Part shown: positions 22,123 to 34,148 of the stretch, in pieces
Position numbering within the stretch: the stretch's first letter is position 1
Layout of the letters: each line of letters begins with the position of its first letter
NCBI GenBank assembly: GCA_947497475.1
Contig: CANMGS010000001.1
Coordinates: 992,001 to 1,056,000 of the forward strand
Reading direction: 5' to 3'
DNA length: 64,000 nucleotides
Source of the DNA: an uncultured Amylibacter sp.
Lineage (GTDB): Bacteria > Pseudomonadota > Alphaproteobacteria > Rhodobacterales > Rhodobacteraceae
The notes under the pieces: model-generated
Told to the model about the DNA's origin: nothing
The model's input: the letters and a program-made list of their open reading frames with translations, nothing else
Database searches by the model: none
Program-made: the position numbers and the translations under genes

Positions 22123-22813
22123 CAGCGGCCTTTTGTTCTGCCAATGCGATGCCTTCTGGATAACCGACATCAGCCCAAAACCCATCATAAACGATACCGT
22201 ACAATCGGTTATTTGCGATCATCTGTTCCCAAAGCAGATTTAAAGAAAAACAGGTATCGCGAATACCAGCCAAAGCATCTGTTTTGATGATTTGGACGCC
22301 CGAATAAACATAAGGAGCTTCTGCTGCACCGCCTCTGCGTTTTAACTGCGCTTGTTCGGTTAAAAAGAAATCACCACTGCCCGCATACCCAATCGCATTT
22401 GGTTTTTTAATCAACATCAGCAAGCCATCCATCGCACTAGCATTCCATGCGGATGATAGCTGCTGAATTGGGTTGGCATCAAACCAAATAGAATCGCAAT
22501 TTAATGTAAAAACAAGCCCTGCTCCGATTTGCGGCAATGCATTTTTTAGCCCACCACCTGTTTCCAAAATCTCAGGCTCTTCACGAATTGGCGTGATATT
22601 TTCTTTTGTTTTTAGGTGTTCTTCTAAAGGCTCTGCAAAATAATGCGTGTTTACAAAAACATTTGTAATGCCAGCATCGGATAAAATATCCAAAGTATGA
22701 TCAATCATCGGCTTACCCAAAACAGGCACCAATGGTTTTGGCGTATTTTCCGTTAAATGACGCATACGGGTCCCAAAACCAGCGGCAAAAACCATGGCAG
22801 ATTTAGGATGCAT
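22115..22813 (-). CDS. murU: Nucleotidyltransferase, N-acetylmuramate 1-phosphate uridylyltransferase type
   Basis: Sugar-nucleotide transferase with the signature AMVFAAGFGTRMRHLT, TPKPLVPVLGKPMI and LNCDSIW. Following the amgK-like kinase, it fits MurU, which forms UDP-MurNAc from recycled MurNAc-1-phosphate and bypasses de novo synthesis (known from Pseudomonas). I start it at MHPKSAMVF, giving 232 residues; this overlaps the kinase gene by 11 bases. Function is from family and context; other sugar-1-phosphate substrates cannot be excluded. Confidence 0.82.
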   Translation of the reverse strand: MHPKSAMVFAAGFGTRMRHLTENTPKPLVPVLGKPMIDHTLDILSDAGITNVFVNTHYFAEPLEEHLKTKENITPIREEPEILETGGGLKNALPQIGAGLVFTLNCDSIWFDANPIQQLSSAWNASAMDGLLMLIKKPNAIGYAGSGDFFLTEQAQLKRRGGAAEAPYVYSGVQIIKTDALAGIRDTCFSLNLLWEQMIANNRLYGIVYDGFWADVGYPEGIALAEQKAADV

Positions 22814-30506: not shown

Positions 30507-31098
30507 CTGTCAAATCCGTGAATCGTTCCAAAAAGCGTCCTTTAACTTCCATAGGAGCATGTGGTCGTAATGTCCGCTTTGGCAAGTCCGATATTACCGG
30601 TTTTCCAAATAATTTGTCGGCTTCAGACTCTGAGAAGCCTGCAATTTGCACAGCTTCAAGCCAAGCCGACAATTTATCCGCTCGTTTGATCTGTTTTTTG
30701 ATCAAGTCGGGGGTCTTTGCTGGCAGACCGAACCGTACATGAATCGCCGCAACAAGGCGTTCATCAAGTGCTTCGTATCCTGGGCCAACAGCTGCTTTAA
30801 CAGGTGAAATCATGTCGCCAATTACATACTCAGGTGCGTCATGCAACAAAGCCGCCAATCGCCATTTGGGATCAATGCGTGGGTTAAGCGTGGTGAATAA
30901 CTCTTCGACAAATACAGAATGTTCGGCAACAGAGTAAGGATAATCACCAACCGTTTGCCCATTCCAGCGGGCTTGAAAAGCCAATCCATGTGCAATATCT
31001 TCGATTTCGATGTCCAACGGAGATGGGTCAAGAAGGTCTAACCGCCGTCCAGAAAGCATGCGTTGCCAAGCTCTGGGTGGGATAGAATTCTTTGACAT
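30499..31098 (-). CDS. HD domain phosphohydrolase, YfbR-like
   Basis: HD-fold metal phosphohydrolase. The metal ligands are in YSVAEHSVFVEEL, AALLHDAPEYVIGD and the later KRADKLSAWLEA. The EYVIGDM block is typical of YfbR-like 5'-nucleotidases and their phage relatives. I choose MSKNSIPPRAWQ as the start since GGAG stands six bases upstream; this gives 199 residues, while the longer open frame runs through the ahcY promoter region. Substrate not determined. Confidence 0.78.
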   Translation of the reverse strand: MSKNSIPPRAWQRMLSGRRLDLLDPSPLDIEIEDIAHGLAFQARWNGQTVGDYPYSVAEHSVFVEELFTTLNPRIDPKWRLAALLHDAPEYVIGDMISPVKAAVGPGYEALDERLVAAIHVRFGLPAKTPDLIKKQIKRADKLSAWLEAVQIAGFSESEADKLFGKPVISDLPKRTLRPHAPMEVKGRFLERFTDLTDG

Positions 31099-31120
31099 AA
31101 AATCTCCATATACCGCTAAT
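31092..31120 (+). promoter_or_regulatory. Candidate sigma-70 promoter for ahcY
   Basis: TTGACA (31092-31097), 17 bases, then GCTAAT (31115-31120). The -35 box is a perfect consensus; the -10 matches at four of six. It overlaps the start codon of the divergent HD gene and would give a leader of about 85 bases before ahcY, in which GGGTA (31135-31139) can pair with TACCC (31152-31156). Confidence 0.45.
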
Positions 31121-31211
31121 AAATGAACCCAATAGGGTAACCCCTTGTCGATACCCAATCTGAATGTTACATGCCACCCTAGAATTATATATTTGTAAAA
31201 GGACCACCATA

Positions 31212-33346: not shown

Positions 33347-33806
33347 AATGGTTCAGCGCACTTACCCCTAAACACATATTAATCTTTCCCATAGTATAAC
33401 ATCCCCGTCGACAAAAAGTGGTTCATGGGTTTTCAAAGGGCGGGTAACAGCGTCAAATGCGAAAACCACCTATAGCGTTTCAACAAAAAGTCGAAACGCT
33501 TTAATTACTGGTAAGAATAGGTGCAAGGGCCCATCAAGCCCTTGGCAGGCATATAACCATAACGGTGGCGCCACCTTTTATAACTTACACATCATAAAAC
33601 GCTTAACCCCGCCAACCGGATAAGGTGACGGGGCTATAGCCCGTTGTGGTGAAAAATCCCCGTTTTTCGCTTTTTTCATCTTTTTCCTTTTTTATTGAAG
33701 GCACTTAACCTATCCTCTGGGTTGAAACCGTGCATGTATCTAGCTCCAGCACAGTTTTTTAAAGAAATTTTGGGGTACGACCCGAAAACAGGGAAGGAAT
33801 TTATTA
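33347..33806. other. 460-base non-coding stretch rich in hairpins
   Basis: No convincing gene. Stems in order: GTGG plus GTTTTC (33418-33434) with GAAAACCAC (33461-33469); CACCTAT then AGCGTTTC (33467-33481) with GAAACGCT (33493-33500) then ATAGGTG (33517-33523); CAAGGGC (33524-33530) with GCCCTTG (33538-33544); GGTGGCGCCACC (33564-33575) followed by TTTT; then the G/C stems listed separately. Successive stems abut with hardly any spacer, as in a folded RNA. I could not match it to tmRNA, RNase P, SRP or 6S RNA. The orientation is unsure; the T-run after 33575 favours a rightward transcript. Confidence 0.5.
33607..33667 (+). promoter_or_regulatory. Possible attenuator: mutually exclusive hairpins
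   Basis: CGGGG (33629-33633) can pair with upstream CCCCG (33607-33611), or ACGGGG (33628-33633) can pair with CCCCGT (33658-33663), which is followed by five T. A third small stem, GGGCTATAGCCC (33631-33642), uses the same G's. This is the layout of an antiterminator and terminator, 140 bases ahead of the DUF2853 gene. No known riboswitch core was recognised. Confidence 0.4.
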
Positions 33807-34148
33807 ATGAGCAAACGTGATGATTTAATCGCGCTATATGCGGAAGACCTAAGCAGCAAATGCGGAATGCAGGCTGACATGGATTTGCTAACAAAAGTAA
33901 CAATCGGCTGTGGCCCTGCAATCTATAATGACGATGCGGCCACGGTTGCAGGATCTCAGGAAGCTGAGCTTGAAACTGTAAAAAACAATTTCCTAATTAA
34001 AAAACTAGGTATGTCAGACAGCCCTGAATTGATGGATGCAATCAAGTCAGTGTTAACAACATACGGCCAATCAAACCGTAACAAATACCGCGCGGTTGTG
34101 TATTACATGCTTGTTAAGCATTTCGGCAAAGAGTCTGTATACGGCTAA
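33807..34148 (+). CDS. DUF2853 family protein
   Basis: 113-residue soluble helical protein (RDDLIALYAEDL, KKLGMSDSPELMDAIKSVL, KYRAVVYYMLVKHFGK) that I recognise as DUF2853; its function is unknown. AGGGAAGGA precedes the ATG. It has the structured region upstream and a strong terminator downstream, so it is a single-gene transcript. Confidence 0.85.
   Translation: MSKRDDLIALYAEDLSSKCGMQADMDLLTKVTIGCGPAIYNDDAATVAGSQEAELETVKNNFLIKKLGMSDSPELMDAIKSVLTTYGQSNRNKYRAVVYYMLVKHFGKESVYG

Follow-up and report, generated by a model that had tools for sequence, protein, structure and literature searches.

The stretch at 33347-33806 of the 64,000-nt window (the whole piece of Amylibacter DNA that was analysed) contains no gene and is flanked by genes encoding an Extensin-like_C protein and a DUF2853 protein. 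One copy of an element that is roughly 285 bp long and scattered through the genome occupies 33354-33640 (+ strand, ends approximate). It begins 7 nt past the stop codon of the extensin-like gene, stops about 12 nt short of the stretch that is conserved with DUF2853, and resembles 11 further genomic sites. A covariance model of the element matches 33401-33581, and the DUF2853 start codon lies 225 nt beyond the end of the model on the same strand. No second copy and no tRNA or tmRNA were found within the window. The interval had been described in an earlier note as the sole gene-free stretch of more than 300 bases in the window, which is about right. Two other stretches were called gene-free by a crude frame picker, 22189-22802 and, when the length limit was made stricter, 30507-31163; the latter contains a listed 279-aa frame, and a nucleotidyltransferase-like frame was seen by eye on the reverse strand of the former.

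Four parts make up the element: a 5' module with TATAAC at its end, a part of some 140-175 nt that folds, a palindrome of 12 nt with a T run, and a hairpin on the 3' side. In the finer order common to 99 aligned copies, the 5' module is followed by 6-7 bases, a palindromic hexamer, an A-rich linker, GTGGTT, helix P1 with P2 nested in it, P5' around P2b, P3, the partner of GTGGTT, P4, the T run, an A/T-rich linker and P6. The pattern of the 5' module in this alignment is CAgCGtACGCAccCCTAACaa..cct.AACC.TTt.cagtGTATAAC. The window copy, which departs from the strict module pattern at two bases, contains the conserved 5' box (consensus CAgCGtACGCAccCCTAAC in the 67 of 99 copies aligned on TATAA) at 33354-33372, the -10-like hexamer TATAAC at 33395-33400 and the palindromic hexamer GTCGAC, the predicted RNA start, at 33407-33412, all on the + strand. 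The predicted RNA (33407-33580, + strand) comprises 174 nt including an inserted hairpin, as judged from the module, P4, the T run and the fold.

The helices of this RNA were placed by covariation and lie on the + strand. P0 is formed by GTGGTT (33418-33423) and AACCAT (33555-33560), and P1 (33428-33467) by GGTTTTC (33428-33434) and GAAAACC (33461-33467), with 98.5% of cells paired and two-sided changes at 5 of 7 pairs. P2 (33439-33454; GGCG at 33439-33442 with CGTC at 33451-33454) has 98.9% of cells paired and two-sided changes at all 4 pairs, and P5' (33468-33522; ACC at 33468-33470 with GGT at 33520-33522) has 96.1% and 2 of 3 pairs. The weakest helix is P2b (TTAC with GTAA, 33505-33514; 68%, 3 of 4 pairs), and P3 (CAAGGGC with GCCCTTG, 33524-33544) shows 87.4% paired cells and two-sided changes at 2 of 5 modelled pairs. 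P4, the probable 3' end (33564-33579), consists of the 12-nt palindrome GGTGGCGCCACC at 33564-33575 and TTTT at 33576-33579, both of which the earlier note had named. The palindrome is perfect in 88 of the 98 distinct rows, with four sequences, and at least four T occur within 6 nt after it in 82 of 99 copies. The 3' hairpin P6 (CCCCGCC .. GGTGACGGGG, 33607-33633, no strand assigned) was recognized from the alignment and from minus-strand folds. Many copies have A's before P6, making it terminator-like on the - strand, and in 95 of 99 copies its minus-strand fold has an energy of at most -9 kcal/mol, a count made without a shuffle control.

The remaining stems named in the earlier note are also present in the sequence. 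Its 15-base interrupted stem corresponds to 33471-33484 with 33490-33503, an extra palindromic hairpin (33471-33503, + strand) inserted in the window copy and missing at that place in the other aligned copies. A strict pattern of this hairpin occurs at two places in the genome, both within element copies, and is confined to element copies in this genome and in that of a second species (G018). The same GTTTC..GAAAC type of hairpin was found at 17 places in genome G019 and at 8 in G030, most of them outside the listed copies, and may constitute an independent small palindromic repeat. In nine copies (L163-L169, L172 and L157) from genomes G006, G009 and G001, about 49 nt with GATTGC..GCAATC-like arms are inserted after the first part of P1. 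The competing hairpins proposed for the end of the interval were partly borne out: the G-rich strand at about 33624-33633 can pair back with CCCCGCC (33607-33613) or forward with CCCCG (33659-33663), the latter followed by five T. However, the forward pairing spans 33652/33653, where similarity to the G018 DUF2853 locus starts, and the forward hairpin therefore looks private to the window copy.

Copies of the element were searched for at the levels of the genome, the genus and the family. A DNA search of 61 genomes with the interval gave matches in 17 of them, including 12 places in the own genome (the interval itself among them), mostly to 33364-33634. A covariance model (R1) was built from 25 copies, whose own matches are by construction. 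It detects 17 copies in the own genome, one of them partial, and is positive in 15 of 33 Amylibacter genomes, with 15 copies in G018, 14 in G006, 12 each in G025 and G009, and fewer in the others. A second model with a fuller structure (R2) is positive in the same 15 genomes. The 18 genomes without a match indicate that members of the genus can do without the RNA. Of the 124 genus matches, 99 (the loci fetched) form the alignment used here. Diverged matches to the covariance model were also found in two other genera. Among 295 family genomes, three (the own genome, G218 and G264) were positive when the best 10 candidates per genome were scored, a depth that missed G021, which is positive on deeper scoring. 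When 41 family genomes were drawn and scored with R2, the own genome was the only positive one; under this model, the G218 copy reaches 54.7 bits, and it carries GTGACGTCAC at its start and GGCGGGCCCGCC near its end. In a collection of named genomes, the 22-base core pattern occurs in 23 stretches, including 20 from Amylibacter, one from an uncultured member of the Rhodobacteraceae, one from Rhodoferax and one from an unnamed proteobacterium. The viral contigs searched held no exact match to this pattern, and the plasmid collection held no match to the interval.

No Rfam (release 15) family reached its gathering score in the window, and a permissive setting gave a single chance-level match (RsaJ, 12.4 bits versus 100). 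Element copies at 10 other loci likewise had no Rfam match. A glycine riboswitch (RF00504, 66 bits) is situated near one own-genome copy (locus L123, 1771-1866, - strand).

Both strands of the interval fold moderately better than shuffled sequences (z = -2.38 on the + strand and -2.87 on the - strand), and the predicted RNA has a z of -2.14, with 4 of 200 shuffles folding as well. Single-sequence folding alone would not settle the structure; the relatives do. The minimum-energy fold of the window RNA yields P0, P1, P2, P3 and P4 without input from the alignment. In a set of 68 copies, 91.3% of the cells of a 33-pair structure are standard pairs and 21 of the 33 pairs show two-sided changes; the set leaves out copies with large insertions, very diverged copies, a two-copy locus and a few near-duplicates, and the count favours P0, P5' and P2b, which were drawn from the same alignment. 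The covariation score is 0.324 compared with 0.189 in shuffles, none of 500 shuffles reaches the observed value on any measure, and the score falls to 0.116 or less when partners are slid by 1-3 columns. The strand was judged from 98 distinct rows. In P1, P2 and P4 together, 109 G-U and 12 A-C cells were counted on the + strand, one P2 pair supplying 37 of the 109. Over all 21 pairs counted, the numbers are 182 and 28, with three of the six P3 pairs out of register. Because G-U cells far outnumber A-C cells, the counts point to the + strand as the folding strand. The comparison with relatives found strong compensatory change, and the folded shape of the element, as read from the aligned copies, is under selection on the + strand.

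The 5' module is promoter-like. The sequence TATAA could be placed in 67 of 99 copies, and the distance from its first T to the start of the hexamer is 12 nt in 51 of them and 13 nt in 13. This fixed-offset count, with a palindrome at 12 or 13 nt in 64 of 67 copies, is the sound one, since a scan with 18 allowed centres would give a chance palindrome in about a quarter of copies. The hexamer lies at about the position where a transcript driven by a -10 element would begin. The strict module pattern matches 12 places in the genome, each at an element copy and all without mismatch, and a reversed control pattern gave 5 genome matches with one mismatch allowed. A simple scan reported no sigma-70 site and did not include P4 among its terminator-like sites. 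Control by CtrA, whose consensus site is TTAA-N7-TTAA, was considered and dropped: a near-consensus site was present in 6 of 67 modules and a loose one in 30.

A small coding gene was also considered and rejected. The conserved ATG in P1 reads MRKPP in many copies, but the frame lengths differ widely. The AAATG that opens this frame (33457-33471 in the window) is at the same place in other copies, and the arginine codons vary (CGA, AGG and AGA).

The copies are located beside different genes. The proteins flanking them differ, and among the own-genome neighbours a single weak similarity, between two proteins, was found. Using crude reading frames of at least 80 aa and not annotated genes, 46 of the 99 copies were placed in convergent and 9 in divergent contexts, 23 in line with and 16 against tandem frames, and 5 beside a single neighbour. 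In 64 of 99 copies, the closest frame downstream runs on the opposite strand; 43 of these 64 end 53-100 nt after the element model. Of 72 upstream frames on the same strand, 38 have their end 44-63 nt ahead of the model start. In G018, the extensin-like gene at the corresponding place is 88% identical and is followed by different sequence, and 33653-33812 is kept at 94% identity (one place) upstream of DUF2853 without the element, with other reading frames there. From this comparison, the window copy was either gained in the own genome or lost in G018. The stretch before DUF2853 (33653-33820) carries a frame of 41 aa that starts with TTG (33695-33820), extends over the start codon of DUF2853 and has no Pfam match. 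This stretch could represent a small gene or else a leader in its own right.

The region is probably a single member gene in a multicopy family of structured non-coding ("sibling") RNAs that would be transcribed independently and act in trans. This reading builds on the copies, their architecture, the covariation on the + strand, the fixed spacing between module and palindrome, and the conservation at shared positions, and it adds a putative promoter, predicted RNA ends, a presumed dimerization and a regulatory role that we infer. Two features of sibling small RNAs are present: several homologous copies per genome (17 model matches, one partial) and a conserved structure on the folding strand. 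The unrecognised small RNA ending near 33579 that the earlier note had suggested is supported, as a predicted RNA, by the module, the palindrome with its T run, the covariation and the lack of an Rfam family. Each copy would be a self-contained cassette with a dedicated promoter-like module. The RNA would begin with the palindromic hexamer and the A-rich linker, continue with a multibranched domain closed by helix P0, and probably end at the T run of the P4 palindrome, with hairpin P6 beyond. Transcribed on their own, mostly near gene ends, the copies would yield sibling RNAs with a common core. Through the single-stranded palindromic 5' end, two RNAs that share a hexamer would be able to pair with each other, and the work in trans might be done by the RNA dimer or by a protein bound to the conserved P1/P2 core.

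The proposed pairing is based on the hexamer. In 95 of 99 copies it is perfectly palindromic, at the model position in 86 and upstream of the insertion of about 49 nt in 9, and seven sequences occur (GTCGAC, GCTAGC, GACGTC, TTGCAA, GAGCTC, GTGCAC and AGCGCT). In predicted folds of 68 copies, its mean unpaired probability is 0.74 compared with 0.47 for the whole RNA. It is identical in 13 of 14 pairs of copies between the own genome and G018, the exception being L114/L129 (GCTAGC and GTCGAC, respectively). The hexamer and P4 sequences are unevenly mixed among the copies. Since six palindromic bases cannot fold on themselves, the constant symmetry with changing letters points either to pairing between two molecules or to a symmetric DNA-binding partner. 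As a sequence pattern, it suggests pairing between two RNA molecules. The palindromes could also come from a mutational mechanism without function; quasi-palindrome correction is a possible source of this type. The dimerization initiation site of HIV-type RNAs is a six-base palindrome in a hairpin loop that varies between lineages and stays palindromic. The analogy is one of principle, whereas the hexamer here would form the free 5' end of a bacterial RNA that is unrelated. A more specific and rather tentative proposal is that RNAs with the same tag homodimerize and those with different tags do not, the seven hexamers being dimerization classes and a tag changing in its entirety through compensatory or block replacement.

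A non-autonomous mobile element (MITE- or SINE-like), copied through DNA or RNA and without a host function, is an improbable alternative. Its structure would be kept for mobility, and copies would survive mainly where no promoter was disturbed, which is consistent with dispersal beside different genes, with the 46 convergent and 9 divergent contexts and with the lack of the window copy at the corresponding place in G018. Near-identical copies in G264 are also in its favour: two of them share 291 bp (94.8%) across the module, the RNA and P6, and a third, without the module, shares 237 bp with one of the two at 99.2%. However, 14 of 15 copies have a counterpart in G018 by flanking sequence (both flanks in 13), in a comparison that left out the window copy and the partial copy adjoining another, and the RNA is more conserved than the cleanly aligned flanks. 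In the 14 pairs, the RNA is 93.3% identical (1922/2060), with values of 95.4%, 87.6% and 84.3% for its first part, the 5' module and the 3' part, respectively; the cleanly aligned flanks (8 upstream and 6 downstream windows) are 86.9% identical (3517/4046), the raw flank identity of 83% taking in badly aligned windows. One pair (L109/L134) is reversed, with 86% for the RNA and 93% for the upstream flank. By eye, no target-site duplication was seen in one G264 pair, and inspection of the aligned copies, likewise by eye, gave no obvious terminal inverted repeats or target-site duplications of the kind that a MITE has. The Y1/RAYT transposase (PF01797), the sole transposase family tested, is absent from the own genome and G018. 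It occurs in 4 of 15 element-positive and 1 of 18 negative genus genomes, and a REP/RAYT-type repeat was rejected because PF01797 does not track the element.

A boundary element, in which P4 terminates transcription on the + strand and P6 on the - strand, convergent genes are insulated and the internal RNA is a by-product, has a low probability. The convergent contexts (46 of 99), the flanking stop codons that often abut the element, the T run after P4 in most copies and the stable minus-strand P6 agree with it. It leaves the fixed-spacing module, the covarying multibranched core and the 5' palindromes unexplained, 48 of 99 copies are in tandem or divergent contexts, and P4 is missing from the list of the terminator scan.

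The attenuated leader of DUF2853 that the earlier note had proposed, for which the position of the element 225 nt upstream on the same strand speaks, is contradicted and very improbable, as the G018 ortholog has no element, the copies adjoin different genes, the convergent context is the commonest and the nearest downstream frame is mostly (64 of 99) on the opposite strand. A cis-regulatory leader or riboswitch was rejected more generally, because the copies have no constant in-line position upstream of related genes and their neighbours differ.

The sibling RNAs CcsR1-4 and LhrC1-5 are short and structured. CcsR1-4 of Rhodobacter sphaeroides are four sibling sRNAs that are processed from the ccaF1 3' UTR (PMC8307010), and LhrC1-5 of Listeria form a five-member family (PMC5880928). 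Both resemble the Amylibacter element in having several similar small RNAs per genome, with four and five members, respectively, versus 17 Amylibacter copies. The Amylibacter copies also differ from CcsR1-4 in being dispersed and in having their own module and a palindromic start (PMC8307010). The Beta-proteobacterial repeat element (BRE) is a repeat of about 90 bp in Betaproteobacteria that is often in tandem and includes the sRNAs bprJ1/2 (PMC3110155). Like the Amylibacter element, it is a short, mostly intergenic repeat with many copies, and at one location or more it is associated with transcripts of small RNAs; the Amylibacter element is set apart by its length of about 285 bp, its mostly single copies and its conserved multibranched structure (PMC3110155). 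The HRC-8-4 motif is another structured RNA candidate, confined to Rhodobacterales and described as a single terminator-like hairpin tied to cco operons in one context (PMC8632094). The Amylibacter element is set apart from it by that description and by Rfam only (PMC8632094). A search of the open PMC literature, with subscription papers outside its scope, returned nothing describing the element and no paper on Amylibacter with sRNA. The element is apparently an undescribed RNA family that is missing from Rfam.

If the copies are transcribed, the element would represent a large family of sibling structured RNAs within single genomes of marine bacteria, and an example of an RNA gene that spreads in cassette form to the gaps where genes end. 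Its 5' end, variable in letters and constant in symmetry, is relevant to how cross-talk among duplicated RNAs is avoided or put to use. If the reading of the hexamers as tags is true, this would be a bacterial RNA family with an evolving dimerization code at its 5' end.
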